Below are positions 370 to 26,974 of a stretch of DNA of 36,879 nucleotides, in pieces. The notes beneath the pieces were generated by a model. It had not been told where the DNA came from. It ran no database searches and was given only the letters and a program-made list of their open reading frames with translations. Origin of the DNA: Magnetococcales bacterium (GTDB lineage Bacteria > Pseudomonadota > Magnetococcia > Magnetococcales > JADFWU01); contig JADFWU010000033.1 of assembly GCA_015234045.1 (NCBI GenBank), forward strand, positions 1 to 36,879, given 5' to 3'. Each line of letters begins with the position of its first letter. Positions within the stretch are counted from its first letter, which is position 1. A program made the translations under genes and the position numbers.

Positions 370-1323
370 ATGAAATCTCTTAGTCTTAGACGTTTATTTC
401 CCGTTCTGATGGCGCTTCTTTTTGCGGTATCCAGCGGATCGGTTATCGCCAAAGAACCACCGGTACTGATGCTAATGCAGGTCAAAGGTACTATTGAGTA
501 TAGTAAAAACGGAACAAAATGGAAAAAAGTTAGACGTAACAAGTTTCTGTTTTCCGGCTATCAACTGCGCTCCGGTGCTGATGGCAGTGGTACACTGGTC
601 AATCAGTCCACCAGCATGTCTCGTCAACTCGGTGCCAATACGGTTATCAAAGTCGCCCCAGAGGGTGCTCAATTGGTTTCCGGTGACCTGGGTGAACCTG
701 CTAAAGCTGACAGTAGCTTGGTGAGCAACCTGAATAATCGGTTCAGCAAAGCCCAGCGCTACACCACCGTGCGCCGTAGTGTGAATAAGAAGGGATCAAT
801 TAAACTCTCTACCGCTAAACAAATCACACTCTCCAACACCTATCCTGAACTGGTGTGGCAGAATGTTGGTGAGGAGTACAGCTATCGTCTTACCATTGAT
901 GGTGATCAAACTTTCACGATTGACTCAGGCAGTAATGACATTATTCGCTTCAAGTTATCTGGTCTTTCCAGTGGCGAACACGACTACCGTGTCGAAGTTA
1001 TTAAAGGCGAAGAAGTGATCTATGCGCCTCGTAAGGACGCAACCCTGACTTGGCTCTCCAGTGATGAAGAAGCCAAACTGCTCGCCAGCGTCAAAGCTGT
1101 TAAAGATGTCGCTCCTGGTGATGACTTCCTGATGGCTGCCCACATGGAAGAAAAAGGCCTGGCTGTCGCAGCTATGGATCTGTACCGGAAATACTTTGAT
1201 GAGAATCCAGACGATTTGGACATGCGTCCCCTGTTGATCAAGGCTTACCATGATCTGAAACTGTCCACCCTGAAAAAACAAGAAGCGATTCGCTACAACG
1301 AAATGCTAAACGCTGAAGGCTAA
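370..1323 (+). CDS. Secreted FecR-domain protein with C-terminal TPR-like tail
   Basis: A 317-residue protein. Residues 1-27 form a signal peptide ending in SVIA before KEPP, so it should act in the periplasm. Residues about 35-120 resemble the FecR beta-sandwich domain (short strands, a positively charged stretch GTKWKKVRRN, then SGYQLRSGADG). Residues about 235-310 are helical with the pattern of a TPR unit (AMDLYRKYFDENPDD). FecR-domain proteins of this kind are often encoded beside CHASE2-domain cyclases, as here; that pairing suggests a periplasmic partner or ligand-binding component for the sensor encoded next. It is not a classical FecR sigma regulator: no FecI or TonB receptor is nearby. 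A terminator follows, so the cyclase is probably transcribed separately or by read-through. Confidence 0.75.
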   Translation: MKSLSLRRLFPVLMALLFAVSSGSVIAKEPPVLMLMQVKGTIEYSKNGTKWKKVRRNKFLFSGYQLRSGADGSGTLVNQSTSMSRQLGANTVIKVAPEGAQLVSGDLGEPAKADSSLVSNLNNRFSKAQRYTTVRRSVNKKGSIKLSTAKQITLSNTYPELVWQNVGEEYSYRLTIDGDQTFTIDSGSNDIIRFKLSGLSSGEHDYRVEVIKGEEVIYAPRKDATLTWLSSDEEAKLLASVKAVKDVAPGDDFLMAAHMEEKGLAVAAMDLYRKYFDENPDDLDMRPLLIKAYHDLKLSTLKKQEAIRYNEMLNAEG

Positions 1324-6489: not shown

Positions 6490-6709
6490 TTTTGTGTCCG
6501 GAAAACCCTTGCCACTTCAGACCCCCAGGTACTCAAAAACCGGAAGAGCCCATTTAATTAAAAATAGGTTGGCATGTAAATTTTATCAACGTGCTATTGA
6601 TCTATTAGGAATTTTATGATTAGTTAAATTGTTAAGTGTTGGTGATTGATCCTGCTGATGTGCTTAATTGGGCTCCCAGGATTTTATACGAATAGCAAGG
6701 AAATTATTC
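6490..6709. other. IS right end and leader of the ATPase-nuclease gene
   Basis: The first bases hold a likely IS3 terminal repeat (from about 6494). The rest is AT-rich leader sequence in which the promoter of the following gene should lie. AAGGAA at 6697-6702 is the ribosome binding site for ATG 6710. Confidence 0.5.
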
Positions 6710-9700: not shown

Positions 9701-10735
9701 GCTGCTTCTGCTGTCTTGCTTGATCCTGCTGAATGGGCGCATGTTAAGGGTTTACTTAAACAAAACTGTGATAGATTCATTGAGTTTGTAAGCTTTATAT
9801 TGACAACAACCAATGGAAAGTTAATTCCATTATCAAAACTCTATAGTCAAGCCATTGATATTATAACTATTGGTTCAAAAAATTGGTTCCTCCATTCGCC
9901 TGTAGCTTGGTCCGGAAAAGTCTATACCCCTACCCCAGATGATAATATATCAGATTATTTACGAAATCTGGTTGATAGGATCGGTAAGGATCCCAGTCCA
10001 GCAGCCTCAAACGCACTACAGCAACTTCTTGATTCAGATTTACCAGAGGATTGGGATCAATATGTTCGATCAATTTTGGCTACCCATCATAGATTGGTTG
10101 CAGATGATTTGTTTCCTGCTCTTCAAGTAAACGATGTATTAAATGTTATTTCCAATGGTTCTCCTGCTACAGCTGGTGATTTTCAGGCTTTGATTATAGA
10201 TTATTTGACGGATATTGCGGATGATCTGCGCAACAATACTACTGATGGTTATAAAGTGTTTTGGAATTTAGATAGCCATGGCAGAACCGCCAATCCAATC
10301 CCTGAAGAGGATGGGCGCGATAGATTGCTGGAAAAACTTCTAACCCAACTTTCTGCTGTTGGCATTAGTGCAGAACCAGAAGGGCATACTGCTGACGATA
10401 AACGAGTTGATATAAAATGCAAATTTGGAACTTGGGTGTTACCAATAGAGATAAAGCGTGATGATCATGATAAGTTGTGGAAATCTCCAGAAAATCAATT
10501 GATTAAACAATATGTTAGGGAGCGGGGGACAGAAGGATACGGTATCTATTTGGTATTCTGGTTTGGTGAGCATGGCCGAGGCCTGCAAGGCCCACCACGT
10601 GGGAGTGGAATTGGTACGCCATCATCGTTCATAGAACTGGAAACAGCATTGCAGAAAACAGTACCTTCAGAACATGAGAGTCGTGTCATTGTTAAAGTAA
10701 TTGATGTCTCAACACGCAAACCTGCTAACCAATAA
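6710..10735 (+). CDS. NACHT/STAND-like ATPase with C-terminal PD-(D/E)XK-like nuclease motif
   Basis: A 1341-residue cytoplasmic protein. The NTPase sits at the very N-terminus: Walker A GEPGMGKT (45-52), Walker B LYLDGLDE (87-94), then SCRTADW (124-130). A long helical middle (about 350-1150) with no motif I recognise resembles the repeat sensor arms of STAND proteins. Near the C-terminus, D1234, then 12 residues, then E1247-I-K1249 match the D...ExK core of PD-(D/E)XK nucleases. Bacterial NACHT and Avs-type proteins couple phage sensing to an effector; here the effector would be C-terminal. The TTG-start extension (6668) is rejected because AAGGAA is ideally spaced before ATG 6710. The middle is strongly AT-rich (8281-8340 has 15 G/C in 60) and IS debris flanks both sides, which suggests horizontal acquisition. 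A defence role is inference. Confidence 0.75.
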   Translation: MCGSESSGNGVVPRLFTQLDSPNEGKRENLPLSNFLSEPALVVLGEPGMGKTTTFVQAAQKEENAECLDIRRFIPPRNPRGLEGKTLYLDGLDEQRAGRTNSNDALDAIIGRLEELGRPKFRLSCRTADWFGELDKSHLRDASSSGYVTVIRLEPLSEVEIRQIVAAQGLDEETFLEQAQQSGIEEWITNPQHLEMILKVVSQGQEWPETRKELFERACLELVREHNDTHRRGMNPSPDNQLMLAAGMLCFLILRANLEGVAFGETSVGEGFPGLTSFSETGLPIVEAARTKLFHHPGPERAAYYHRTMAEYLAACFLVYQINHNGLPASRVKSLLISENGLLPSHLRGLHAWIASLCSEPALSLFLNTDPLGFILYGDPTFLSIKRKEQLLNEMSELAEQDPWFRQDLWDINPFERLADSSLSEKFQNVLSDWQNHQSPFVATILDIITAAKIPIVPDSSLLSVIRDHEAPSYLSYKAVRAYATHYPGMLDKLKSVVIDYIDNKLVDKDSTLEILLTELYPKHLTLEFLFNNISKLRVNNFFQYYLVEKIPKEQLPQLLILLQQNKNFIFEGEQYDSHFYWKELVGQSLVKAIKYHGEISEPEVIWSWFGVLTNSNSFSDYSEKYRLKIQEWFDEHKDVLKNILMFTINNSDPNEIGKDVFRLWRRLQISEPEWFASWCLEQVPEFTNNQEAANALFVEGIKALFWHEPIPPYPLDIAFDFVEWHPYYKDLLTPLLSSDLDENKWIRPISNIAEKAERNRTKQQLIANLTRKIQGIEQCVEKGELYRLAKIYHGRFWNVNFELSPYHRLVDYTSQDIAKAASLGFIKCVYESHSYTPEDIKKLALEGKEYSISYVLLAALELIGESSLLNIPEDTLKSAIAFKMSKPSGREPAWFLYLLKEQPDMASRVIFAYWLPQLQANSEHISDLSRLDSKEWSEIAQRLAIPLLEACPKLEGQSLELLLLAALKWGDHQALNQLVQERWQHVTDQISGWSYLAASAVLLDPAEWAHVKGLLKQNCDRFIEFVSFILTTTNGKLIPLSKLYSQAIDIITIGSKNWFLHSPVAWSGKVYTPTPDDNISDYLRNLVDRIGKDPSPAASNALQQLLDSDLPEDWDQYVRSILATHHRLVADDLFPALQVNDVLNVISNGSPATAGDFQALIIDYLTDIADDLRNNTTDGYKVFWNLDSHGRTANPIPEEDGRDRLLEKLLTQLSAVGISAEPEGHTADDKRVDIKCKFGTWVLPIEIKRDDHDKLWKSPENQLIKQYVRERGTEGYGIYLVFWFGEHGRGLQGPPRGSGIGTPSSFIELETALQKTVPSEHESRVIVKVIDVSTRKPANQ

Positions 10736-10862: not shown

Positions 10863-11280
10863 TCAGGCCATCTTCGATAGGTGAAACAGAAAAAGTCCTT
10901 TTATGAAGAGGGGTTGAGAGTTTTTTAAGATGATATCGGCTTTTTCTGATGGCCGATTTCTCTGAAAAAATTCAAAATTTCCTGAGCGAATTTTACTGAC
11001 CTGCAACGCTTTCAAAGCCTCTTTGACTTGGAACCATGATTCTCCGCATTGATGCTCCACTACACGCGCAATGAGCAAAGCTAATACGCAGATCTTCACG
11101 TGGGCTTCGATTCTCTTTTCCAGACGGTGAAACATTGGGGTCATTTTGATTTCTGTGCGTTTAAGGGAGCGGAAACAGCGTTCAACGACCAGCAGCGATT
11201 TATAGGCATTTGCCGCATCAGCCACGGTAATCGTGTCGTCATTTGTTTGAATGACCCACTTGCCGTCATAACGAGCAGCA
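10863..11280 (-). pseudogene. IS1634-like (IS4 superfamily) transposase, C-terminal fragment
   Basis: Reading on the - strand, the fragment encodes AARYDGKWVIQTND followed by LLVVERCFRSLKRTE and a helical tail. This is the C-terminal part of an IS4-superfamily transposase, including the region around the catalytic Glu (VERCFRSLK). The N-terminal half is missing: homology stops at about 11280, where sequence changes abruptly into an istB fragment on the other strand. The few residues before FNAARYDG come from that foreign sequence. It is not functional alone. Confidence 0.8.
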
Positions 11281-11559
11281 TTGAACCGACTTCTAAAACC
11301 AGACCTGCTCATCTTGGATGAATTAGGATACCTGCCTATAGATAAAGCTGGAGCCGATCTTCTATTCCAAATCTTCAGTCACCGTTATGAACAAGGCTCT
11401 ATCATCATCACGACCAACCATGCCTACAAGGACTGGGCAAAAATCTTCAACAACGATGCCACACTCACATCGGCCATCCTCGACCGTCTACTCCACCACG
11501 CAGAGACCATCCTTATTGAGGGTAAAAGCTACCGAATGAAAGGTAGAATTGAGGAGTAA
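11281..11559 (+). pseudogene. istB: IS21-family IstB ATPase, C-terminal fragment
   Basis: About 90 residues starting at the Walker B region (LLILDELGYLPIDKAGADLL) and running to a natural C-terminus (EGKSYRMKGRIEE). This is the end of IstB, the helper ATPase of IS21 transposition. The Walker A half and istA are missing, so it cannot function. It is fused back-to-back with the IS1634-like fragment on the left. Confidence 0.85.
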
Positions 11560-11874: not shown

Positions 11875-13701
11875 CTATTGGGCTGAAAAACGCCTGGAAA
11901 GCGCTTTGGCGCGCTTTCGTGCCGCTTCAAGGTCGAAATTGATCGCCCTGTTTTGGCCCAATTTCAAGGCATTACGATAGTAGGCAAGCGCTTCTCTAGG
12001 CTTACGCATTTGATCGAGGCTGACGGCAAGATTATATGCGATGTCCGGGTTTTGAGGATCTAATTTCAATGCTTTATCAAAAGAATCCTGCGCCAAAGCC
12101 CACCGCCGATGGGTGATATAGAGCGTACCCAACACAAAATGCAAATGAGCTGAATTTGGCTCTCGTTTGAGCATAATTTTCAAGCGGCTCTCACGATGTA
12201 CCGGATCTACATTGCGTCCTAAACTAATGAGACCTGCCATGGCCACACTATCCGAAGGAGTCACCCGTAATACCCGTTCATAAAGTTTCCGTGCATCATC
12301 AAAGCGCTTCTGACGCAAGGCTACCGATGCCATACCAATCAATGCATCACGGTGTGAACGATCATGCTCCAGCACCCTTCCATAGGACTGGATAGCACGG
12401 GAATAATCACCCTGATTGAGCGCTTCTTTACCCTGATTCAGTTGTTGTAAAACAAGCTCTTCTACTCGCCGATGTGAGATACGAACAGATTTCTCAGCAG
12501 GTTCTTCGTAACGTTCCGCCTCTATCGTGCTGTCTTTGACACTCTGTTGAGTCGCTGTTGGCCGACGTGCGATCGGTTTCCTAGCAACTGGAATAGGTTT
12601 AGCGGATGGTTGAGCCACTTCTGTCGAGACCGGTACGGATACCTGCTTGTCCGGCACAGCGGCAACCACTGGCTTATGTTTTACAAGCGAAGCGTTTTTC
12701 ACAGGTGCAGGTTTCTTTGCTTCTGGCTTGCTGGCTTGTTCAATTGATACTGAAGGCGGCGTGCTTGATTTCACCAGAGCTGGATTTGCCAATTCGACAA
12801 TCTTTGGCCCATCGGGCAACTTATCCGACTTTGGCTCAACAACGCGCTGATCCGGCGATGAGACTGGCACCTGTATTGGCGAATCCGAAAACTTAGGAAG
12901 ATTCAAACGACTCGATGCATCATCAACCTCAGTACCCTCTTTATCACTAAGCCCTAAACCAGGAATGGTTGGTCCAGACTCTGCGGACATCGTTTGCGAA
13001 TAGTGATCATCCTCACCCAGATGTGGAATGGCTAATTCATTCGAGAGTCCCTGACCACCAGTATTTGGCGTATCATTCAGTTGTGGAATTGTCGGAACCG
13101 CTTTTTTAGACGGAGACGGAATAGGTACAACCGGGACGGGTTTAGCAGGACGCGCCTGAGCAACCAAAGCGCCACGACTCACTGAAGGAGCACCCCACTC
13201 ATTCAGGGATTGATACAGAACGAACCCACCTCCACCAACCAAAGCAGAAAGCAGTGAAGAAATAATCAAACCATTGCCCATCTTTCGCCCACGCCGTTCG
13301 CGTCGGGCAATCTCGCCGCCCCATTTATCAGACGAGAAGAAAGGATCAGCACCAGAACCAATACCCCTGCTCCACTCACCAGAGGCTTTGGAATCCTGCC
13401 AATCCTGTTGCTTACTGGTACGTTCAGATGCATTATCCGAACTTGGCATGTCCGCTTTTGGCATACCTTTGGTCTTGGTATCCCCTTCAGTAGATGGCAA
13501 ACCGGGAGGCGGAATGGCTGGCCCCGTCATATCAGCAGAACGCGCTGAATCAGCTGTACCAGCTGCCGTATCGACAGGTCTGGACACCGCACTGGCTCCA
13601 GGCATACTTACCGAATCGGTCTCCGCCGTTGTCTTTGCTGCCTTTCCCTTTTGGTCCTTAGCAGCTTCAGCGGTTTTCAGGGCATCCATCAAAAGGCTCA
13701 T
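11875..13701 (-). CDS. Membrane-anchored TPR protein of an MSHA/type II-like apparatus (MshN-like)
   Basis: A 608-residue bitopic protein. It opens with MSLLMDALKTAE, the short cytoplasmic motif seen in MshN/GspB-like assembly proteins. One membrane helix follows at about 143-165 (LIISSLLSALVGGGGFVLY), then a long Pro/Lys/Ser-rich linker to about residue 410, then about five TPR repeats (for example NQGDYSRAIQSYGRVLEHD and FDKALKLDPQNPDIAYNLAV). The TPR domain would be periplasmic and could contact the secretin or pilin subunits. It starts six bases after the secretin stop, as the last gene of the operon. Overall plan, rather than close similarity, supports the MshN-like call. Confidence 0.75.
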   Translation of the reverse strand: MSLLMDALKTAEAAKDQKGKAAKTTAETDSVSMPGASAVSRPVDTAAGTADSARSADMTGPAIPPPGLPSTEGDTKTKGMPKADMPSSDNASERTSKQQDWQDSKASGEWSRGIGSGADPFFSSDKWGGEIARRERRGRKMGNGLIISSLLSALVGGGGFVLYQSLNEWGAPSVSRGALVAQARPAKPVPVVPIPSPSKKAVPTIPQLNDTPNTGGQGLSNELAIPHLGEDDHYSQTMSAESGPTIPGLGLSDKEGTEVDDASSRLNLPKFSDSPIQVPVSSPDQRVVEPKSDKLPDGPKIVELANPALVKSSTPPSVSIEQASKPEAKKPAPVKNASLVKHKPVVAAVPDKQVSVPVSTEVAQPSAKPIPVARKPIARRPTATQQSVKDSTIEAERYEEPAEKSVRISHRRVEELVLQQLNQGKEALNQGDYSRAIQSYGRVLEHDRSHRDALIGMASVALRQKRFDDARKLYERVLRVTPSDSVAMAGLISLGRNVDPVHRESRLKIMLKREPNSAHLHFVLGTLYITHRRWALAQDSFDKALKLDPQNPDIAYNLAVSLDQMRKPREALAYYRNALKLGQNRAINFDLEAARKRAKALSRRFSAQ

Positions 13702-13707
13702 GGCCGA

Positions 13708-15552
13708 TTACAGTCCCCATCCGTTGGAAGGCTTATCTTTGTTAAAATAGGTGCGGGTTCTGGCTCGTTCCAGAGCACCAAACTCACCACTATTAACCAA
13801 ATCATCATCAGAATGAATCACAGATGGACGTAAAAACACGATCAATTCGGTTTTACTCAGTGTGTCATCCTTATATTTAAACAAATTACCAAACACCGGT
13901 AAACTGGACAGTACAGGCACATGTGCTGTGGATTTATCCACTCGATTGGTCATGAGACCACCAATAACGCCCACTTGACCACTGCGAACGGTCAACATTG
14001 TCTCCATTTCACGAACCTGAATTTTAGGTACGCGACTGGTCACATTCTGTTCAGCCAGATCAGGATTGGGATCGGTAGCGAATCCGAGAATTCTGGTGAT
14101 CGTTGGACGCACAATCAGTGTCACTTCATCACTCAAACTGATCTGCGGCAACACATTCATCACCAAACCGACAGGAACAGTATGAACTTGAGAGGTAAAG
14201 GTAATGGACTTACCCTCATCCCGAGCATCTTTTTCAATAGTAAAGTAGACCTCATTGTCCACAACTTTGAGTACGGCTATCTGGTTATTCAGTGAAACCA
14301 ATTTCGGTGTCGAAAGTACCTGAACATCACCAAACTGCTTCAACATGCGAACTGCGGTGGTCACATTGTGTACAGTACCTGTGATACTGCCAAATGATGC
14401 ACCTGGCGAAAGCATATTGAGATTGAATACCGACTTCTCCAGCGGTCCATAGCTATCAGCATCAAATCCCGTATTAACGCTGGACGTACCAGACCAGTCC
14501 ATCCGATTAGAACCCACATCCCGCATGGCGGACCAATCTACACCGGATTGGAAACTATCGCTGAGTTCCACTTCAACAACGGTAGCCTCAATCCGTACCT
14601 GACGACGTGCCCCAGCCATTACCTGATCCAGAAATGATTGAATTTCGGCATGTTGGCGCGCAGTAGCCCGAACACTGATCAGACCAGATTGTGGATTGGT
14701 GAATACCAACGGTGTTTGAGTATTTTTCTTGGTGATTGTGGGCCGAACAGCATCAGCACCCCCTTCTCCATCCACCGGCATACCGTCACGAATTCGCTCT
14801 ACACCGTCATCCACTGCTCCATCAACACCCTCACCAGCGGCTTCATCACCACTGGCATCCGCACTGGGCTGTTTATCTTCAATAATACCAAGAATACCGC
14901 GGATATTGGATGTAAGCGTTTCCCAAAACTGGTTTGAGGACTCACTGTCCACCATCACGGTAGAGCGTCCTTCAGTATTGCCATTCTTATCGCTACTGAC
15001 ATCCCCAGATTGATTCCGGCCAATCTGATTAGTCAAGCGCAATTGCGTGGTAGACGTGCGTGTCATGTTAATATAATCAACATGATAGGTATACAAATAA
15101 GGCTTGTCAGGTCGAACAATCAGTGTCTCACCTTCAACCTCAAATTGCAGATCCACTTGTTGAGCGATACGCTCAAGAATTCTTGGCAAAGGCTGATCAA
15201 TGGCATTCAAGGTCACCTGACCGGCAACACCGGGATGGATATCAACATTCAGATTGGCATCCCTCGCCAAAGCATAGAGCAGATCCCGCACCTGCATATC
15301 CGACACGCCTATCGTATAGACTTCCTTATCCGCACCTTGAGGAATGGTGGAAGATGGCGTTGTCAAAAAGGGTGAGTGAATCACTGGCTCAGGGATATCC
15401 CCGACAACGGCCTCCGGTGGCTTCAGATGCCCTTCCATATTCTGGACAGCTGGATTGGTGGTGATACATCCACCAAGAATCAAGCTATAGGCAAGCAGGC
15501 TACCCAGCTTCTTTGGAATTCTGATCTTCGTCATACTTTCCCGTGTCATCAT
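13708..15552 (-). CDS. mshL: MshL-type secretin, outer-membrane lipoprotein
   Basis: Outer-membrane secretin of about 614 residues. The N-terminus is a lipoprotein signal with lipobox LGGC. An STN/N0-type domain follows (about 75-150: YTIGVSDMQVRDLLYALARD, then PRILERIAQQVDLQFEVEGE). Next comes a variable acidic linker, then the secretin core starting QVRIEATVVEVELSDSFQSG and ending with RVPKIQVREMETMLTVRSGQ and TELIVFLRPSVI. This order matches the MSHA pilus secretin MshL. An upstream TTG could extend the frame by six codons, but AAGGG is correctly spaced only for the ATG pair at 15552/15549, so I start at 15552. Adjacent ExeA/MshM-like and MshN-like genes support an MSHA-like or type II-like channel. 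Confidence 0.9.
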   Translation of the reverse strand: MMTRESMTKIRIPKKLGSLLAYSLILGGCITTNPAVQNMEGHLKPPEAVVGDIPEPVIHSPFLTTPSSTIPQGADKEVYTIGVSDMQVRDLLYALARDANLNVDIHPGVAGQVTLNAIDQPLPRILERIAQQVDLQFEVEGETLIVRPDKPYLYTYHVDYINMTRTSTTQLRLTNQIGRNQSGDVSSDKNGNTEGRSTVMVDSESSNQFWETLTSNIRGILGIIEDKQPSADASGDEAAGEGVDGAVDDGVERIRDGMPVDGEGGADAVRPTITKKNTQTPLVFTNPQSGLISVRATARQHAEIQSFLDQVMAGARRQVRIEATVVEVELSDSFQSGVDWSAMRDVGSNRMDWSGTSSVNTGFDADSYGPLEKSVFNLNMLSPGASFGSITGTVHNVTTAVRMLKQFGDVQVLSTPKLVSLNNQIAVLKVVDNEVYFTIEKDARDEGKSITFTSQVHTVPVGLVMNVLPQISLSDEVTLIVRPTITRILGFATDPNPDLAEQNVTSRVPKIQVREMETMLTVRSGQVGVIGGLMTNRVDKSTAHVPVLSSLPVFGNLFKYKDDTLSKTELIVFLRPSVIHSDDDLVNSGEFGALERARTRTYFNKDKPSNGWGL

Positions 15553-15674
15553 CCAACCCTTTGAGGACAATCCGTTGACGCCGACTCGTCCATCTTTTTG
15601 GAAGTACCATCATGGCGTAACAGTTCTTCATATACCATGATGATGCACTCCTCGGCTTTGTGCCTGTTTATCAT
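15549..15674 (-). CDS. Possible small ORF translationally coupled to the secretin gene
   Basis: Forty-one codons (MINRHKAEECIIMVYEELLR...CPQRVG) whose TGA overlaps the secretin start as ATGATGA. The frame extends further upstream to about 15737. A perfect hairpin, GGGAAG/CTTCCC (15685-15699), lies just before the proposed ATG. It has no recognisable domain and no clear ribosome binding site. It could be a real coupling peptide or chance. The surrounding region 15675-15835 holds nothing else I can support. Confidence 0.3.
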   Translation of the reverse strand: MINRHKAEECIIMVYEELLRHDGTSKKMDESASTDCPQRVG

Positions 15675-15835
15675 TTCATTTACTGGGAAGATACTTCCCA
15701 CCACCCCCCTACCATGAAACCCACTGTGCGTAGTCATGGCCTATTCGGTATGTTCCATATTCACCGAATGAATAAACAGGGCCTTAGGGCACTATTAGCA
15801 ATTTCCATGCTATGTTTTATACAATGTGCAACTTT

Positions 15836-17782
15836 TTATTCATTCCACGCTATTCCGTGGCGTTTTAATTCGCTTTGAAGGCTGCGTACCGACTGAATAT
15901 ACGCACCCGTTTTCTGAAGCGCTTTTGGCAATTTTTCCAGCGCGGTTCGCGCGGATGAAAACGTTGGATAATCCCCATGGTAGATTATCATATGTTTGTT
16001 TTTTAGTGGGAAAATAAATACAGTTCCCATTTCCTTTTTGAGCATGTTTTTGCGGAAGAAACCATACAGTGTCTTTCTGGTTTCAGGCTTCTCAACCCGC
16101 ATGACACGAATCGTATAGTGACGCGGACCTGTTTGATCAATCCATTCACGCCCAGCCATTATCCTCTCTTCAATAAACGCTTCTGACTTGGGTAATTCCA
16201 CTGCCTCGGCACTATCATCAGACAGATTTTGTCGAAGAACTGACACCTCTTTATACTCAACATCGGACCGGGACTCTTGTTGTGCGGCCTCTTGTTTTGC
16301 GGCCTCTTGTTGTGCGGCCTCTTGTTGCTGTTCCTCTCGTTGAGTATCTACTGGATTTACTGATTCATTTAAAGAGTCCAGCTGCATTGCGGACGGTTCA
16401 CCCGGTTCAGCTGACGGTTCCAATTCCGGCTGCATCACCACAGAATTTGGTTGGTGTTCGACAGATTCAACAGGTTTATCAGAGGCCATATTTTCCTCAG
16501 CTGGCAACTGTTCATAAGCATGCAGCGAAGCCATAACCGTATCGACCATAACCGCTGCATCCTGCTTACTTTCTGCTGTCATATTCATGACACCAGGTAC
16601 TGTGTCCTGCATCATGTTCTGTCTATTATCTTGGCTATGTAGTGAGGCGTTATTCAGTACCGATGGGTGCTGTTCGACTATGCCAACATCATCCTGTGTT
16701 TGCAAAACAGGGCTTTTTTTTTCAGGAACACCAAGCTGATCTACCCGCTCTTGCTCTGTCCTGCTGGTCTGCGGCTGTGCCACCTCTTGTTGGTGCTGAC
16801 TCATTTCTGGCTGATAAGTCGCTATATCAACGTGCTGTTCTGTCCTGGAACTATCCATCAACGACTCCAACAAAGCCGGTGGATCTTTGATCAACCAACC
16901 CATCACACCACCACCAATCACCATGCTGGTAAGTACTGTAACGGGTCGAAAAAATCGTTTGATGCCCGCAGCGTTTTCCCTCTGTGTTCCACTCACTGCC
17001 GTGCGAGCCGTTTGAATCCCGACCCGATGCACATTTTTCACATAAGCTGCCAACAAAGCCTTGTGTGCCATCTGATTCAATGGCCCAAACCAACCGCCCG
17101 ATGCATGCGCCAATATCCGCGCGGCACCACTGCTAAAGACATCCTCTCCACGATATCCAGTACCGTGCATTCTAAATGCAAGATAGGCTTTTACCTCTTT
17201 TGCTTTTAGTGGCGACAAACGGAAATTATTAGTGACCCGATCCCTGAATTGACGCATGTCATAGCCGGACAGGCGCTTATCCAACTCAGGACGACCAAAC
17301 AGAACAACCTGAAACAACTTATGCTTGCCGGTTTCCAGATTCCCCAACAAACGAATCTCTTCCAGTGTAGCCAGTGGCAGTTTATGTGCCTCTTCGATCA
17401 CTACAACCACTTGTTGCCCGGCCATATGGTGATTCATTAAGCTCTCCTGGATCAAATGAAGATGATCCAGAGGACCGCTATCAGGAGGAATGGACAGTCG
17501 TAACTCAACAGCAATGGCTTTGAGAATATTTTTGGGCGTAAGATCCGTCTGAACCAAATAGAGCGTTCTGATTGTATCCGAGACAACCACACCAAGCATT
17601 CGACTGAGGACCGTTTTTCCACTGCCTGGAACACCAATCACCTTGGTCATTCCCTCACCGCTGGTGAGTGCATATTGCAGCCCTTGCAATACCTCCGCAC
17701 GCCGACCACCTTGGTAAAAAAGGCTGACATCAGCACTATTGGAGAAGGGAAAGCGTTCCAATCCAAAGTGGTCTAAATACAT
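15836..17782 (-). CDS. ExeA/MshM-type AAA ATPase with C-terminal SPOR-like domain (copy 1)
   Basis: A 648-residue inner-membrane protein. The N-terminal AAA domain opens with the family signature MYLDHFGLERFPFSNSADVS, has Walker A GVPGSGKT (50-57) and a Walker B region ending IEEAH, with Glu at 130 where the third copy has Asp. A single membrane helix (about 280-300: VTVLTSMVIGGGVMGWLI) leads to a long Gln/Glu-rich periplasmic linker. The last ~95 residues (RHYTIRVMRVEKPE...YHGDYPTFSSARTALEKLP) resemble the SPOR peptidoglycan-binding domain of DamX-like proteins. In the ExeA family such ATPases help insert the secretin through the peptidoglycan. GGAG precedes ATG 17782. It is the third of three tandem paralogues, 23 bases after copy 2. 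Confidence 0.85.
   Translation of the reverse strand: MYLDHFGLERFPFSNSADVSLFYQGGRRAEVLQGLQYALTSGEGMTKVIGVPGSGKTVLSRMLGVVVSDTIRTLYLVQTDLTPKNILKAIAVELRLSIPPDSGPLDHLHLIQESLMNHHMAGQQVVVVIEEAHKLPLATLEEIRLLGNLETGKHKLFQVVLFGRPELDKRLSGYDMRQFRDRVTNNFRLSPLKAKEVKAYLAFRMHGTGYRGEDVFSSGAARILAHASGGWFGPLNQMAHKALLAAYVKNVHRVGIQTARTAVSGTQRENAAGIKRFFRPVTVLTSMVIGGGVMGWLIKDPPALLESLMDSSRTEQHVDIATYQPEMSQHQQEVAQPQTSRTEQERVDQLGVPEKKSPVLQTQDDVGIVEQHPSVLNNASLHSQDNRQNMMQDTVPGVMNMTAESKQDAAVMVDTVMASLHAYEQLPAEENMASDKPVESVEHQPNSVVMQPELEPSAEPGEPSAMQLDSLNESVNPVDTQREEQQQEAAQQEAAKQEAAQQESRSDVEYKEVSVLRQNLSDDSAEAVELPKSEAFIEERIMAGREWIDQTGPRHYTIRVMRVEKPETRKTLYGFFRKNMLKKEMGTVFIFPLKNKHMIIYHGDYPTFSSARTALEKLPKALQKTGAYIQSVRSLQSELKRHGIAWNE
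16274..16333. repeat. 15-bp tandem repeat inside ATPase copy 1
   Basis: Three copies of CTCTTGTTGTGCGGC (16274, 16289 with one change, 16304) and a degenerate fourth copy at 16319. On the coding strand they encode a Gln-Glu-Ala-Ala repeat (QEAAQQEAAKQEAAQQE) in the periplasmic linker. Slippage here would change linker length in steps of five residues without a frameshift. Confidence 0.85.
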
Positions 17783-17805
17783 TCAGACTCTCCAGGCTTC
17801 TTTGA

Positions 17806-19704
17806 TCAGCGATGTTCTGGGACATCATCACCCAGAGCCACCAAGTTGAATACCTGTCGCCTGATATTGGCCAAACGTTTGGGAAACGGGCCTGCTGCCT
17901 TGAAGATTTTCGGCAAATGTGTAACCCCTTTTCGAGCTGATTGCTCTGAATCAAAATCCCCAAAACAGACGGTGATTTTACCCTGTTGATCTCTCAGGAT
18001 ATGGATCTGTTCGAGCGTTTTCGAGTTAACCTCAGTGAAAAGCCTTTCTGCAAGGCGACGCTGATTGGACATTGCATCCAAAGAGAGTACCTGAAGGCTC
18101 CATCTCTGCCCTGAGGAACGCATTACCCATTTGCGGCCGGATATAATGCGCTCATTCATCAACGCCAGCGCCATTCGTGTCTTTTCAGGAAGCAGGTGAT
18201 CCAACTGATTGGCAAATCTCAACCCACGCACAGAAGTACCGTCAAGATGTGCGCCGGATTGTGTATCCACGACATCGGAACCCTGTGACTTCGGTTCTAA
18301 TACATCGGCCTGCGTTAACGGCTTTGCCGAATCCAGTAGTACAGTACTTGCTTGCGGTATCTCGTCCTCTTCTTCAAAAAGATGATCCGGCAGAGCAATG
18401 ACTGTTTCTGGAATTGAGACAACATCCTGTAATCCAATAGGCCTGACAAACGTCCGACTCATCGTTGTCACCATAGGCTTAACGGCAGAATCAATGTGCT
18501 TGGTGTCTTCAATTAAACGAGGGGATTCAATCATCGCTTCTGGATGGCCAAAATGAGATCTTTCCGCCTCTTGTATCTCTTTACTGCCCTTATTCGGGAC
18601 TATAGGATCACTGCTTTGAATGGCTTTATCAAGTACTGGAACAGGTAGATTAACACTCTGTTTCTGCTGCGATATACTGGTCGGTTGTGCTGCCAATGTT
18701 GGTAATTCTGCCGGTTGGCTGAGTAGATAAGCACCACCAGCACCCATCATACCGGCCATCAGTGTCGCGGCTGTAAAAACATGACGCTGCCGCACTGGCA
18801 GTGTTAAATCCATCCATGGACTCTGCCAAAACTTCAATTTTTCTCCGGCATACATCAACTGATGCATCAAATTTTTACGCCGCGTCTCATTTCTTTGCCA
18901 GTTAACATCACTATCTCGCACGGCTAAACGGACATGGCGTTGATAAATTCGATGTTTTTTCTGACTGTAGGCAGCCATCAATGACTTATGACTCAGCGTA
19001 TGGATACGCCGCACCAATCCTTCTGACACCCGATATACTTCACTCAGTGCCCAACGGTTGAATAACTGTGCGCCATGATGCCCGGAAATAATCAAACGAT
19101 GGGCAATATAATCCGCAACTTCCTGGCGATTGAACGGCCTGAGTCGGAACTCATAATTGATGTGCTGAGTAAGCTTAAGACCTTCCACCGTTTTTAACCG
19201 TTGATCCATCTCAGGCTGACCAAACAGAACCAGCTGTAATAGTGGCTGCTTGCTATCCGGCATGGCGAAATCACGCAATGCGTTGAGCGTTTCCAACGGC
19301 ATCCCCTGCGCTTCTTCAATCAAGGCCACAACTTGTCGTTTTTCGATCTGCTTGTTTTGTAGATGATCTCGCAGTAGAGACTGTACGGTCTCCATGCTTT
19401 CTGATGCAGAGATCTTAAGTCCCAGTTCACGGCCAACTGCATGAAAAATATTTTGTGGAAACAGACTTGGATTGGATAGAAAGGCAACATCGACCAAACT
19501 GTCCAGCTCATTTTCGAGCATGCGACAGAGCATCGTCTTGCCACTACCCACTTCACCAACAACCAATAGCACGCCCGCATGATCCAGGATGCATGACACC
19601 AGGCTGTCCAACACCATACCGCGCTGACCACCACCGAAAAATCGGTTGATGTCCGGTGTATTCTGAAAGGGAAAATTATCTAGGCCAAAGTGATCCAGAT
19701 ACAT
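17806..19704 (-). CDS. ExeA/MshM-type AAA ATPase with C-terminal SPOR-like domain (copy 2)
   Basis: A 632-residue paralogue with the same plan as copy 1. The opening is MYLDHFGLDNFPFQNTPDIN, with Walker A GEVGSGKT (50-57) and Walker B region LIEEAQ, again Glu at position 130 in place of the usual Asp. A membrane helix lies at about 310-330 (VFTAATLMAGMMGAGGAYLL), then a periplasmic linker, then a C-terminal SPOR-like domain (QRWSLQVLSLDAMSNQRRLA...CFGDFDSEQSARKGVTHLP). It is encoded between copies 1 and 3 in one presumed transcript. The linker differs completely from that of copy 1, so the duplication is old or the linker evolves fast. The substrate is unknown; a role in secretin assembly is inferred from family and context. 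Confidence 0.85.
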   Translation of the reverse strand: MYLDHFGLDNFPFQNTPDINRFFGGGQRGMVLDSLVSCILDHAGVLLVVGEVGSGKTMLCRMLENELDSLVDVAFLSNPSLFPQNIFHAVGRELGLKISASESMETVQSLLRDHLQNKQIEKRQVVALIEEAQGMPLETLNALRDFAMPDSKQPLLQLVLFGQPEMDQRLKTVEGLKLTQHINYEFRLRPFNRQEVADYIAHRLIISGHHGAQLFNRWALSEVYRVSEGLVRRIHTLSHKSLMAAYSQKKHRIYQRHVRLAVRDSDVNWQRNETRRKNLMHQLMYAGEKLKFWQSPWMDLTLPVRQRHVFTAATLMAGMMGAGGAYLLSQPAELPTLAAQPTSISQQKQSVNLPVPVLDKAIQSSDPIVPNKGSKEIQEAERSHFGHPEAMIESPRLIEDTKHIDSAVKPMVTTMSRTFVRPIGLQDVVSIPETVIALPDHLFEEEDEIPQASTVLLDSAKPLTQADVLEPKSQGSDVVDTQSGAHLDGTSVRGLRFANQLDHLLPEKTRMALALMNERIISGRKWVMRSSGQRWSLQVLSLDAMSNQRRLAERLFTEVNSKTLEQIHILRDQQGKITVCFGDFDSEQSARKGVTHLPKIFKAAGPFPKRLANIRRQVFNLVALGDDVPEHR

Positions 19705-19794
19705 GGCTCTATTCTCTCTTGTCCTTCACAGGACAGGTTGTCATCTTGATTATTTTTTCTCACACAACTAGGACGTTTTACCTGCCTAGGACTA

Positions 19795-20982
19795 TCAATT
19801 CATTTCAACAGCTGATTCCTGACGTGGATTCCAGCCCGGCAGGTGGGTTCGTGGCGCTGCCAAAAAAACCGCCATACGCAACGTATGGCCTTTTTTTACC
19901 CGCTGTTCGAAAAATTGTGACTTTGTTTTTTCAACACGTGCAATCCTTTCGGATTGATTCATCATCGGTGTTTTTTCTTCTACTGCCGTATGTTCAATCC
20001 GCTTTTCAGTGCTCATTTCTGGCGCAGCGCTGGCGTGTGCCTGTGTTATGCCATCAGTTGAAAACATGTTATATGCCCCCAATCCAGCAAAACCAATACC
20101 AACCGCGACCAATCCAGCGGCCATTGCGCTGTACCAATTCCAACCAATAGATTTTTTCACAGACCTTTCGGAACGCAAAAAATCACAATCTTCCATGGCT
20201 GTACGCACATGTTTGACCGTAACCTGGTTTGCGCGTTCAACATACGCTGCCATAAGGGATTTATTGGCCAACGTGTTCGTGCGTCGAATCAGTCCTTGGG
20301 CCTCTTTAGCCACTAATTTGGCGGCGCGAGGATGAAACACCCCCTCTCCTGACAAACCTGTCGCACGCATGCGCACTATGAGGTATTGCAAAATATCGCT
20401 TTTATCCAGTGGTTCCAGATAGAAACTGTGTGCAATCCGATCCTTGAGCTGACGAATACCATAACCATCCAGATTGACATCCAATTCTGGTTGGCCAAAC
20501 AGTACGATCTGCAACAATTTCTGGCGCTGCGTTTCCAGGTTACTCAATAGGCGAATCTCTTCCAGTGTCTCGATTGGCATTCCCTGGGCTTCATCAATAC
20601 AAACAACAACCTGACAATTTTCTGAATAGCGCTGAACCAGGTAATCCTGAATCATATGCATCACGTGCAACCGGTCGGCATTGTCCGGTGGTGACAGTTT
20701 CAATTCAGTAGCAATCGCATGGAAAATGTTTTCTGGAGAAAGGCTGGGATTTACCAGATACACAACCTCAACTTCCGGCGGCAATTGAGCCATTAAATAG
20801 TGGCACAACATGGTCTTACCACTGCCCACTTCACCAACCACCTTGAGAATACCCTCACCGCCGAGAATGGCATAGATGATCGCTTCAACGACCTCACCAC
20901 GTCGCCCACCTTCATAAAAAAGGCTCAGATCTGGTAAATTGCTGAATGGTTGGCGTTTCAGACCAAAATGTTTCAAATACAT
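19795..20982 (-). CDS. ExeA/MshM-type AAA ATPase, short form without SPOR domain (copy 3)
   Basis: A 395-residue paralogue, first in the operon. The opening is MYLKHFGLKRQPFSNLPDLS, with Walker A GEVGSGKT (50-57) and canonical Walker B CIDEAQ (Asp130, Glu131). Sensor and lid regions follow up to about residue 275, then one membrane helix (WYSAMAAGLVAVGIGFAGLGAY) and a tail of only about 85 residues with no SPOR domain. An upstream ATG would add 23 residues, but GGAG is well spaced before ATG 20982, and all three paralogues begin MYLxHFGL, so 20982 is chosen. It may be the principal active ATPase, with copies 1 and 2 adding peptidoglycan-binding ends. Confidence 0.87.
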   Translation of the reverse strand: MYLKHFGLKRQPFSNLPDLSLFYEGGRRGEVVEAIIYAILGGEGILKVVGEVGSGKTMLCHYLMAQLPPEVEVVYLVNPSLSPENIFHAIATELKLSPPDNADRLHVMHMIQDYLVQRYSENCQVVVCIDEAQGMPIETLEEIRLLSNLETQRQKLLQIVLFGQPELDVNLDGYGIRQLKDRIAHSFYLEPLDKSDILQYLIVRMRATGLSGEGVFHPRAAKLVAKEAQGLIRRTNTLANKSLMAAYVERANQVTVKHVRTAMEDCDFLRSERSVKKSIGWNWYSAMAAGLVAVGIGFAGLGAYNMFSTDGITQAHASAAPEMSTEKRIEHTAVEEKTPMMNQSERIARVEKTKSQFFEQRVKKGHTLRMAVFLAAPRTHLPGWNPRQESAVEMN

Positions 20983-21153
20983 GCACGTTTCTCCAGTACG
21001 TCTCATATCTATTTTGAACAATAGATAGAGTGAATACAAAGTGAATAGCAAGTTCTGTGCAACTATTGAATCACATTGTTTCTAAAGTAACTTTATCAAG
21101 CATATCCGATAACCGACATAGCTGAAATTGACTGATTTCGTCAGATTGATGGC
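20983..21153 (-). promoter_or_regulatory. Leader/promoter region of the ATPase-secretin operon
   Basis: On the - strand this region contains two neighbouring TATTCACT copies and, closer to the gene, a perfect 7-bp hairpin ATCTATT/AATAGAT (21007-21026) in the presumed leader. I could not assign -35/-10 boxes with confidence. The operon must start here because a terminator for the preceding gene lies at 21155-21187. Confidence 0.35.
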
Positions 21154-21154
21154 G

Positions 21155-21187
21155 AAAAAAAAGCGGACAGGATAGACCCCGTCCGCT
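21155..21187 (-). terminator. Rho-independent terminator of the giant mosaic protein gene
   Basis: AGCGGAC (21162-21168) pairs with GTCCGCT (21181-21187). On the - strand the hairpin is followed by an eight-base T run (A run 21155-21162 on +). It separates the 1917-residue protein gene from the ATPase operon downstream. Confidence 0.85.
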
Positions 21188-21220
21188 CATTTTGATTGGC
21201 TGTTATAAAAGCGCTAACTG

Positions 21221-24200
21221 CTACTGAACAACCGCAATATCTTCCAGTTTAACACCCCATTTTTCAGCCACACCAGGATGTAATGTATTGTCGATCAATA
21301 CCTCTGACTGTTGGTTTGCCGGTAATGAGATGACAGAAGTCGCGCCCCATACCTTATTACCCGTCGTATCCGCATAGCCCACATCAACCCCATTGACCGT
21401 GACCAACACCTCCGTAGCACTGTCCACATCATAGTAACGCAATGTCAAATCACGCGACGACTCCGCTATTGGGATCAGATAACGCAGATTACTATATTGC
21501 ATATCATTTGTGCTCTGACTGGGATGCCGTCCTCTTGTTTCCGACATTTCACCGAGACTATAGAATTTAACACCCCAGCCTCTCTGGGCTTTGGGATCTG
21601 TACTGCTCTTGATACGAAGAATATTATCCGTATTTGTCAACAACGCAGGTGGCACGACAACATGGTAACGACTGGTCCACTTTTTCCAAGCTCCTTCTGG
21701 AATACCGACCAATGCCTGTCCATTCAACGTGAGTGCAATCTCACCATCTGAACCACTATCCCAGCCTGCCATTTGAAGCAGGTAACCGGCATCACTTTTG
21801 GGCAGGTGGAGATCAATACCACTCGCATGTTTCCGGTCACCACCCTTCAAGCCAAGAATATTACCGAAACTACTCAACCTCAGAGGAAAAATCCCCAACT
21901 GACGAACGCCCCATTTTGTGCCTTTTTTCTTATAGTGCAATCGTAGTTCTATACGGTTTTGCTCTCCGGAGTCATTTTGAAGCGTTACAGGAATTGGGAA
22001 CAATGAGTGTTTGGAGAACCCATTTTTCTTACAACAAGAAACCCAACCAAGCCGCGTTCCATTAACAAATACAGCCAGCTCTTTGAGCATGTTCATATCG
22101 TAGCCTTGGACATGGAACAGACGATCCGTGCCATCACCCACAAAGGTGGCAGCCAGTCGGCTATAGTGACTGCTTGTGCCATAACTATAGCCATAACTGC
22201 CACTGTCCAGGACACTATCCTGTAATACAATCACCGGCCCTGTATCGCTTTGAGCATTTGGATGACTGTCAGTGCTATCACTCACACCATCTCCATCGCT
22301 ATCACTCACCGTGGGATCGGTTTCAATGCGGTATTCATCCAGATTGGACAGTCCATCACCATCATCATCATTGGTTGCATCCGATGACAAGAGCGGATTC
22401 AAACCGTATTTAATCTCAAAGCTATCAGGCATGCCATCATTGTCATCATCCGTGTCAACGGTATCAAACAGCCCATCACCATCACTATCCTGTACCGGTA
22501 ACAAAGAGACGACCTGCACACCCCAAGCATATTTTTTTGGTGGATTGTAGGTGTTATTGATATCCAACACTGACCACTGACCAGCAGGAAGATCAATCTG
22601 TTTTGAAGCACTCCAACCATTATTTGCCGTCTTGCCTGCATGACCAATGCTGGTGCCGTTCAGCTGAATCTGTAGTTCATCGGCATAGTCCACATCGTAA
22701 TACTTCACACTCAGTTGGGCCGCTGTCTCATATTTTGGTGTCAACAGATAGACTCGTCTGATCTGTGATGATGACAAGGCATTGCCAGACATTTTGCCTA
22801 AATAGCTATCCAGCGGGCGCAGATCATGCAAACGAACGCCCCAGTTATATTTATTGCTGATGCTATTGTTGATACGCAGAAAATTATCACCAGCCTTGAG
22901 GTCATCGCCCGGAATAATCAGCTGATAGCTGGACGTGAAGCCGTTATTCTTACCTTTTGGTACACCCGAATAGACCGAACCATTCAGTAAAATTTGCACT
23001 TCACCATCACTGTCACTATCAAAGCCTGCCAATGTCACCAAATACCCACTGGTTCCACCGTTCAAGTGGAGATCAATGCCCGCAGGATGACTGGTATCAC
23101 CATTGGTCAGACTCTTCATATTACCAAAGCCGGTAGGCAGCGCATAAACCCCGAGTTTTCGTACTCCCCACTTCCACCCGGAATTTTTCTGACGAAACTC
23201 CAGGCGATTGGTTCCCGTAATCTGATCACTTGCAGATAACAGGTAGATCGTGTTGTTGCCGTGGGCGTTATTCTTACTCTCTGCCAAGTAGCCAATGCGC
23301 ATGTCATTGAGATAGATACCCACCTCATTAGCTGAATCAATATCAAAAGCTTGTGTATGAAGGAACAGATCTTCTCCAGTACTTTCAAAGGTAGCGACTA
23401 ATGTTTGTGGATGTGCATTGGTGCCATAGCTGGAACCGTATTGACCACTCTGTTGTTCACCAAGTAGCAGAGAAATAACCGGCGGTTCTGTACTTTCATT
23501 GACCGTGATTTGAAAAGCCGACTGACTCAGCAAAACACCATCGCTTACCGTGAGAATAACAGTTGCAACACCTGATTGATTGGCAACCGGTGTAACCGTA
23601 ACACTCCGACTCGCACCCGTCCCACTGAGCACAACATTACTGGTAGGAACAAGGGCAACATTCGAAGAAGTAATGGAAACAGTCAGACTTTCAGGAGCCG
23701 TTTCACCATCCGACACAGAGAATAATAACGGGCCAACACTCTGATCCTGATCAATTACTTGATCAGATAGTGCGGAAATTTCAGGAAGGGTGTTTTCAAT
23801 GCCTGCTGTAGTGGCAATGCGCGTCACAGAGTCAATGGTCACTGGAGAAACAGGCACATCCTGATAGTAACCTATTGTGGTTGTTGGCGTTTCTACAATT
23901 GAATCTGCGACATCCAGACCATCGACTACGGCTCCAAATACCGCATAGCCCGGAGAAGAACTGGACTGGTAGTCCAAAAATGTATTATCTACCACGTTTA
24001 TAAAAAACTGTGAACTTGCCGTATCTGCTCCAGTCATGCGTGCCATTGCAATCGTGCCACGCAGATTGGATAGACCATTGTTGGCCTCATTAACGATAGT
24101 AGCATTCGGTGTTTGATACTCCAGAGTACCATCTATCGACTTGAAACCACCGCCTTGAATCATAAACCCTGGTATGACCCGATGAAAAATCAGGCCGTCA

Positions 24201-26974
24201 TAAAAACCACTGTCCAAATAGTCCAGAAAGTTCGCCACTGTCACCGGTGCTCTGTCAGGGTAAAGCTGTAGCGTGATATCTCCAAAATTTGTTGTAATGG
24301 TTACCTGATTGTCACTGCTATCAGAAAACGCAGGCCAGGAGCCCACATTTAATTGACCTATGCTGTTCACTCCAAGGACTTGCACTGGCACTGATGATGC
24401 CGTTGTATTTCCAGTACCCAGTTGACCATTATCATTTGCACCCCAGGTCCAGACAGATCCATCTTTCAAAATGGCGACTGAATAATCATTGGCTGTGGCC
24501 ACATGTGTTACATTACTCAGAGAGGTAATCTCACTCAGAGTTGGATTAACATAACGATCTGAACTTCCCTGACCCAACTCGCCATTTTCATTTTTTCCCA
24601 AACCAAACAGCGTTCCATCAGTATTCAACGCCAACGTATGTGCAGAACCTGTATCAATCTGCGTCTGAGAAAGAGCACTCAACACAGTAATCTGAGAAAC
24701 CTCTTTTGATACGGAGTAATCATCCGCCGTACCCAACTGTCCCCAGCCGTTATATCCCCATCCATAGACAGAACCATCACTGGCCGTGGCAATAACACTA
24801 TCCAAACCAGATGAAATACGGGTTATTGTAGAAGGCAGAGCTGTGATCTGCACAGGTGTCGTTGCATTGGTATTTCCAACCTGACCCAATTGGTTTCTAG
24901 TATTGGAACCCCAAGCCCAAACCGCGCCATCCGCATCCAGTGCCAAACTATGTGACCAACCCGCCTCAATAGCGATAATGTTTGAAATATTTGATACCTG
25001 AACAGGCTCCAACGTGTATTGTCCGACAGAATCATTCCCAATCTGTCCATCACCATTCCAGCCCCATGCCAAGACCGTTCCATCCGCAGACAAGGCCATT
25101 GAATGGGCACTGCCAGCCGCTACGGCAACTATCTGAGACAGCCCAGTAACCTGAACCGGTGTACTCCGGCTGGTTCCCGTACCATCTCCTAACTGACCAG
25201 ACTGATTGTTACCCCAACTCCATACCGTTCCATCTTTTTTTGCCGCGAGAACAGTACCATTTCCTGCCGCGATATCACGCACATCGGTTATGTCCAATTG
25301 TTCTGGTGTCGAGCGACTACTGACAGTTGAGCTACTCACTCCCAACTGACCTTTACTATTCAGCCCCCATGTCCACACCCGTCCCGTATTGGTCAGCACC
25401 ACTGTAAAAGAGCTGGTATATAGCCCAACTTCAACAACACCATTTGATGGCACCAATGGATTGATATCAGTACCATCTTTGATACCATCTCCATCCGTAT
25501 CAGCAATATTGGGATTACTGAACGCAATCGCTTCAGAGGCGTTACTCAACCCATCTCCGTCACTGTCCAACACACCATCAATACTGTCCAAGCTATCCAA
25601 ACCATACGCACTTTCGTACAGATCGGACATGCCATCATTATCATCATCACTGTCACAGGCATTACCAAGCCCATCACCATCCTGATCAGTCTGATCGGTG
25701 TTGACCGTATTCGGACAATTATCTACACCATCCTGAATCGTATCCGCATCACTATCGGCCAAAACGGTTGTGGATTCTGTGCTGCTATTGTTGCTGGTAT
25801 CACTATCTACTGAACTGCTGGTCACACGTACTGTGTGATCGACACTGCCCGCTGCTGTTGCCTGAACAATCAATGCCATATGAACCGATGCACCACTCGC
25901 CATATCACCAATCTGACAGATCAGTGTGCCACTGCTGTTCGTACAACTCCCTTGTTCCGGGGTCGCCGAAACAAAGGTCATAGTGCTATCCAATGTCGAA
26001 GAAACAACCACAGCGCTGGCTGACTCAGTGCCATTATTAGAGACCGTTACCGTATAGGTATAATTAGAACTCTGAACCACTGGATCAGCGCTTTCCGTCT
26101 GGCTAATGACCAGATCAACATCTGAAAAATTCTTTGCAGATTGGAAAGCCGCCACTTGAGGTGCCGCATTATTGATAGAAAGAACATTGTGTGCGGAATT
26201 TGTCTCAGTTGTGGCGATACCACAGGCATAGGCACCATCGGTTCCACAAGTCAGATCGGGGCTGGAGAACTTGGCCTCCAGTGGATCAATATAGCTCATA
26301 ATGGTGCCGAATTGATCAGTAACACCATAACCAAATGAGTAAGAATATAGTCCTGAGGAATCAGGATCAGAATATTGAGCACGCTCATGCATACTGCCCA
26401 AATTGTGACCTAATTCATGAACCATGGTGTAATCATCACAAAATGATGTTCCACTGCCACTCTCATCCTGACCATCACCCACAACAGAAAAACCGTGACT
26501 ACTCTGTAATTGCCGAACATCAGAACCGGGTTCTGTCTGCCAACTGAATGCACCCAGACCACAACTCCCTTGTTCAGTAAAGTGAAAAGGTCGTATCAAT
26601 GTGACCAGATCAGCACCATAATTGGTCCGAATTTCAGCAATATTGGAGAATGCACTTACTTGTGCACCTCTGAGATCACTCAATGCTGTTTCGTTGGATG
26701 TTGTGTCCGAATAGTCCACTTCCATAGTGTGGACCAGTCGAATCTCAATATTGATGCCACTGTCCACATAGGCCTGATTACTGAGCGTCACCAATTGGTT
26801 GATTCGGGTCTGCAAGGCACCATTCGGATAGTTGCTCGCCATACCTGGTGTATAGAGCACCATTAGATCAATTTGATTGATTGTAGCACTGTTGGCAGGT
26901 GTGCTTGTAAACAGCAGGCCCAGCAGGAAAAAATGAAGTATTAACAGGAATCTGTTATTCATTAACCAATCCAT
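21221..26974 (-). CDS. Giant secreted mosaic protein: zincin protease, TSP3, RCC1, cyclophilin and six WGV repeats
   Basis: A 1917-residue exported protein. An N-terminal signal peptide (to about residue 29, TPANSA) precedes an M12-like metalloprotease with the full zincin motif [11 protein letters not shown] (186-196) and a downstream Met-turn-like IMSYID. Then come a DUF11-like domain (about 285-400), thrombospondin-3-type Asp-rich calcium repeats (about 405-510), seven RCC1 units (about 515-870, e.g. [15 protein letters not shown]), a cyclophilin-type prolyl isomerase (about 885-1065, [15 protein letters not shown] and SSQFFINV) and a cadherin-like segment (about 1060-1165). Two triplets of an unrecognised repeat (Trp-Gly-Val at W1269, W1378, W1484 and W1688, W1800, W1906) are separated by more TSP3 repeats. 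No sorting motif or C-terminal anchor was seen. The ATG at 26974 has a poor ribosome binding site; the ATG four codons later is possible. Likely an adhesin/protease at the surface; substrate unknown. Confidence 0.85.

Follow-up and report, generated by a model that had tools for sequence, protein, structure and literature searches.

An uncatalogued domain family of predicted galactose-binding-like fold closes a giant, probably secreted mosaic protein in six copies

The window that we analyzed, a stretch of 36,879 nucleotides, encodes a giant ORF that closes with six ~100-residue repeats, arranged as two groups of three, and these repeats belong to a real, uncatalogued domain family: a new family with a known fold. 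The WGV domains, as we call them after their Trp-Gly-Val motif, are copies of one non-catalytic domain, a beta-sandwich by prediction, that is often appended in tandem to large exported proteins. The family occurs in the Pseudomonadota and in the phylum of Desulfonema, in fusion with secreted peptidases of three families and with a predicted pilus-associated protein, and a name for it would allow the tails of giant exported proteins in uncultivated bacteria to be annotated. As to what the domain does, we give roughly even odds (about 50%) to its being a non-catalytic, multivalent targeting module, most likely for a glycan or a surface, whose ligand we infer.

The repeats stand at the end of a long series of modules (Table 1): a Sec-type signal peptide (by eye), a metzincin, DUF11, TSP3 and RCC1 modules, a cyclophilin, a cadherin-like linker and the six WGV repeats. 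The zinc motif HExxHxxGxxH is intact (at aa 186) and, together with the Reprolysin_5 match (1.8e-16), places the N-terminal domain among the M12 metzincins; the 15-residue cyclophilin motif at aa 930 is likewise intact. Residues 1061–1162 are 37% identical to cadherin-like stretches of a protein on another contig of the same genome (C20), to which we return below. From aa 1165 to the end of the protein at 1917, Pfam and NCBIfam scans yielded only the mid-region TSP3 and weak noise. The GC and GC3 contents of the repeats are unremarkable compared with the rest of the ORF.

Table 1. Features of the window, with positions counted from its first nucleotide.
Feature	Position	Strand	Basis or remark
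Whole giant ORF, 1917 aa, probable secreted mosaic protein	21221..26974	-	Pfam and NCBIfam scans
Metzincin (Reprolysin-like M12), Pfam aa 33-228	26117..26884	-	Pfam 1.8e-16; Mep72 model 158 bits, positions 2-241
DUF11 domain, aa 287-400	25775..26116	-	Pfam
TSP3 repeats	25475..25774	-	Pfam
RCC1-like repeats, n=7	24350..25447	-	Pfam
Cyclophilin (Pro_isomerase), aa 891-1051	23810..24313	-	Pfam
Cadherin/Ig-like linker, aa 1056-1164	23483..23809	-	By eye; no Pfam match within the giant ORF
WGV repeat copy 1 (c1)	23135..23482	-	Repeat alignment; AlphaFold2 model
WGV repeat copy 2 (c2)	22808..23128	-	Repeat alignment
WGV repeat copy 3 (c3)	22493..22804	-	Repeat alignment
TSP3 linker between triplets, aa ~1495-1578	22241..22492	-	Pfam TSP3_bac at 1536-1555
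WGV repeat copy 4 (c4)	21881..22237	-	Repeat alignment
WGV repeat copy 5 (c5)	21542..21871	-	Repeat alignment
WGV repeat copy 6 (c6), runs to C-terminus	21224..21517	-	Repeat alignment
Terminator-like hairpin directly after giant ORF	21161..21188	-	12-pair stem, T run; 1 found vs 0.5 expected in shuffles
MSHA-like cluster: TPR protein, MshL-like secretin, three consecutive MshM/ExeA-type AAA ATPases	11875-21051	-	
IS1634-type transposase fragment	10863-11312	-	C-terminal part of model only
1355-aa ORF	6668-10735	+	No Pfam match at E 0.001
MtxA-like magnetotaxis protein: DUF7354, MtxA_IG-like, MtxA_C domains	370-1323	+	

On re-checking, the Trp residues of the WGV motifs fell at 1269, 1378, 1484, 1688, 1800 and 1906, exactly where an earlier note on this DNA had put them, and the TSP3 linker that stands between the two triplets refines the picture given there. 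That note had also proposed that copies 1 and 4, 2 and 5, and 3 and 6 are the most alike and that one triplet was duplicated whole, and both proposals held. Scored against 200 shuffles, c1/c4 (37% identity, Z 19.7), c2/c5 (43%, Z 21.7) and c3/c6 (39%, Z 17.2) stood out from the remaining pairs in the window, which had 21–34% identity and Z 2.2–9.6 (lowest for c1/c5, at Z 2.2), and the two triplets aligned end to end with 38% identity. In a tree, c2 and c5 (support 0.998) and c3 and c6 (0.890) paired up, and one clade (0.997) contained c1 and c4 along with the copy from C20 and two copies from Gammaproteobacteria. The pairwise scores, the triplet alignment and the tree thus indicate that three distinct domains came first and that the triplet was duplicated later. 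For tests of structure and binding, this unit of three domains offers a compact target.

Searches of Pfam, NCBIfam and PHROG returned no model above noise for the repeats, in agreement with the earlier failure to recognize a named family, and the result that the note had named as contrary to its claim (an HMM match to a described repeat or CBM family over the full unit) did not appear in any of these three collections. For the family members as a group, the same collections gave nothing better than E 0.0042; among 17 members scanned for Pfam CBM families, the best E was 0.0045 (DUF7383), with none near a gathering cut-off; and the PPC/bacterial collagen-binding profile was absent among the Pfam matches of the six copies at E up to 10. 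The weak sequence matches fall on sugar-binding families of the galactose-binding-like fold, namely PL4 domain III, beta-galactosidase ABD2, GH2 beta-galactosidase and BcsB.

The coherence of the family was seen with a profile built from ten sequences of other genomes and none of the window, which recovered all six window copies (58, 35, 53, 57, 24 and 48 bits for c1 to c6) and the C20 copy (62.6 bits), the best score across 200 shuffles of the tail being 3.3. In a 17-row alignment of the family (A4), the hairpin Asn was conserved in 17 of 17 rows, the Trp in 16 of 16, and the Gly and the Val in 15 of 16 each. Two loop residues, Asp48 and Glu54, were both present in 13 of the 17 rows and both missing in four (from two lineages), and never occurred singly. 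The repeats had been described as containing an Asp-rich strand; the Asp residues are indeed present, but they lie in the loop that follows the strand (D48-x-D50...E54 in copy 1) and not in the strand itself.

An AlphaFold2 model of copy 1, for which the six copies served as the alignment, has nine strands (pLDDT 85.9, pTM 0.81; loop 19–23 poor) and predicts a galactose-binding-like beta-sandwich. Foldseek ranked a collagenase PPC domain first (5sv5, E 6e-5) and also returned rhamnogalacturonan lyase and BcsB. With VIA, the model matched the GH98 C-terminal domain (Z 9.4; 3.4 Å, 102 residues), BcsB (Z 9.2; 2.7 Å, 102 residues), XynJ (Z 8.9; 3.0 Å, 98 residues), CBM35 and CBM36 (Z 8.5 each) and the ColG domain (1nqj; Z 8.3; 2.7 Å, 92 residues), with CBM6E and GH2 sugar-binding domains also among the neighbors at Z 8–9.4. 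Because so many families tie, we assign copy 1 to the fold and to no single family within it. The suggestion that the repeats resemble a beta-sandwich carbohydrate- or calcium-binding module therefore fits the predicted fold, given its CBM35/36, GH2 and BcsB neighbors, but the reference to calcium loses weight, since two sub-lineages lack the Asp/Glu pair and a site at this loop would thus not be family-wide. Prediction of a triplet, which the earlier note had proposed, was poor (pLDDT 67.6; PDB matches with rmsd above 16), and domain packing from that model was set aside for this reason.

These neighbors bear on the idea that a single described CBM or PPC family includes the repeats, as divergent members past the reach of profile searches. 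CBM35, CBM36 and CBM6 resemble the predicted sandwich at VIA Z about 8–8.9 over ~100 residues, a level tied with many other families, but they have no sequence match to the WGV domain, share 7–15% identity with it and are equaled in score by several unrelated families. The PPC and collagen-binding domains (5sv5 and ColG 1nqj), from which the top Foldseek match came, are also C-terminal beta-sandwiches on secreted metalloproteases, but they are 12–15% identical to the WGV domain, which has no Pfam PPC match. GH2-type sugar-binding and BcsB domains share the fold, a hairpin pattern around the conserved Asn-Gly turn (by eye) and weak profile matches, but the scores are sub-threshold (E 0.03–1.6 against PDB sequences; 0.011 in NCBIfam). 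We consider membership of one such family quite improbable: for all the structural likeness to CBM35/36/6 and PPC/CBD domains, with the E limit set at 0.1, CBM and PPC models matched none of 17 members, save for single weak matches to the PL4 CBM-like and ABD2 models, and Z is level across many families with none prominent.

Within its own order, the domain was present in 1 of 48 genomes, that of the window, with no match to either profile in the other 47, and a survey of 398 genomes of the phylum gave, outside the window's genome, only weak partial matches. Further afield (taxa being quoted as those of the sampling centers), among 369 genomes sampled from the class of an Aestuariibacter genome (Gammaproteobacteria), one was a clear carrier, through two proteins (E 9e-18 and 3e-16), and two further matches were weak, and 395 sampled from the phylum of Desulfonema magnum contained five genomes, with best E per genome of 1.7e-21 to 7.6e-9. 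Plasmid and phage searches, as well as 42 genomes with TSP3 proteins, gave no match. A scan of genome contigs with the whole 753-residue tail returned 61 loci, none carrying the repeat at E≤10, and was dominated by the TSP3 linker, which makes it uninformative on the spread of the domain; another profile (A1) was unsuitable for scanning contigs because too few of its columns are conserved. Planctomycetes matches of 20–28 bits covered part of the domain and were excluded from the family counts, and matches of 15–21 bits in other Pseudomonadota, which by eye resemble 7TM-DISM sensors and CreD-like proteins, were rejected as superfamily-level or chance.

The domain typically lies towards the C-terminus, often in tandem, and is linked to peptidases of families M12 (window), C13 (the C20 paralogue) and C1 (L137), attachments that fit a targeting module. 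The C20 protein, the second WGV protein of the window's own genome, carries Big_9/cadherin domains, Peptidase_C13 and a surface Ig domain in addition to one WGV copy, 63% identical to c1, and part of a second that is interrupted by the contig end. L137 and L135 have a papain-type C1 peptidase and PKD followed by WGV domains, in tandem in L135 (partly masked), and L133, cut by a contig end, combines sortilin/BNR and Ig-like domains with three tandem WGV domains. Two TSP3 or RCC1/laminin-G giants (L131 and L132) have one WGV domain each, C-terminal of which is a region that by eye resembles type I secretion; L138 has a fibronectin-like region (by eye) and then two tandem WGV domains; and L142, on a beta-helix protein, is a weaker, partial member. 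Our literature search found no paper naming this mix of domains together.

A different architecture was found in L134, L139 and L140 (genomes G805, G881 and G845), in which an FHA domain is followed by a hydrophobic segment, a single WGV domain and a helical tail. L139 is flanked by Tad-type pilus genes (RcpC/CpaB, a secretin, a T2SSE ATPase with FHA, and FHA-TPR). These FHA proteins are possible periplasmic components of a pilus machine. Since they lie past a membrane segment, off any extracellular enzyme, they count against the glycan reading, as does the point that function does not follow from a shared fold; domains of the galactose-binding-like kind have proteins, lipids and nucleic acids among their ligands too. 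The main rival, which we think unlikely, is accordingly that the WGV domain docks protein to protein, for instance onto pilus or secretion machinery, and does not bind glycans. It draws on the FHA architecture with its adjoining Tad genes in G881 and on the genes that follow the giant ORF on the same strand, three ATPases of the MshM/ExeA kind and a secretin that resembles MshL (241.7 bits, against a cut-off of 250.2). Against it, a terminator-like hairpin parts the ORF from these msh-like genes, most other WGV domains belong to secreted enzymes or to giants, and the nearest folds are mostly sugar-binding. A more general version, in which the domain would serve type IV filament and secretion machines at large (Tad, MSHA, type II), both as a periplasmic machine part in the FHA proteins and as a tail tag delivering secreted proteases, strikes us as a long shot.

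For the targeting reading, the closest comparison is Mep72 of Pseudomonas aeruginosa, a metzincin with two tandem C-terminal CBM-type domains that is exported by type II secretion and whose autoproteolysis is slowed by alginate (PMC4334185). The likeness of the window protein to Mep72 is that a metzincin, presumably secreted, has domains of presumed carbohydrate-binding type on its C-terminal side, and the Mep72 model is the best NCBIfam match of the window metzincin, at 158.3 bits over positions 2–241 only. That score is well short of the 645-bit cut-off of the 573-position equivalog model (NF052434), so the protein is not a Mep72 equivalog; the C-terminal half of the model has no match in it, and it has in addition DUF11, TSP3, RCC1, a cyclophilin and six domains from a different family. 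By analogy with Mep72, the protein would be exported to an extracellular location, where each WGV copy may weakly bind a ligand, most likely a glycan belonging to a polymer outside the cell or on its surface, and a metal at the Asp/Glu loop may take part; the six weak-binding domains would jointly hold the giant protein on its surface by avidity, and the metzincin and cyclophilin, at the opposite end, could then act on nearby proteins.

Alternatively, the repeats might be ligand-free, passive spacers or stalk segments that aid export or domain separation. They keep company with TSP3, RCC1, Ig and cadherin-like modules, which are often spacers, and the genome holds paralogues with shuffled modules. 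We find this improbable, because the repeats are C-terminal rather than between an anchor and the enzyme, the Asn, Trp and Gly-Val are near-invariant across phyla, and the Asp/Glu pair is kept or lost together.

As to the surroundings, we considered whether the giant ORF and the msh-like genes form an operon and, given the hairpin between them, make no such claim. The host is probably a magnetotactic bacterium, and three observations point to the Magnetococcales: the window encodes MtxA domains, MamA scores over its cut-off on contig C20 and is present in 37 of the 48 genomes of the order, and this order is the sole one in its class. A paralogue in the window's genome (L106; contig C42, 3170-8368, + strand) is 67% identical to aa 15–895 of the giant ORF but, where the latter has its cyclophilin and WGV repeats, carries repeats that by eye are PKD-like and carboxypeptidase-regulatory-like, which suggests that C-terminal modules have been swapped between giant proteins. 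Other giant ORFs of the RCC1/TSP3/DUF11 type in the same genome are 2258, 2463 and 2791 aa long (L107, L078 and L109, on contigs C25, C23 and C26), the first of which ends in a cyclophilin that is 65% identical to that of the window.
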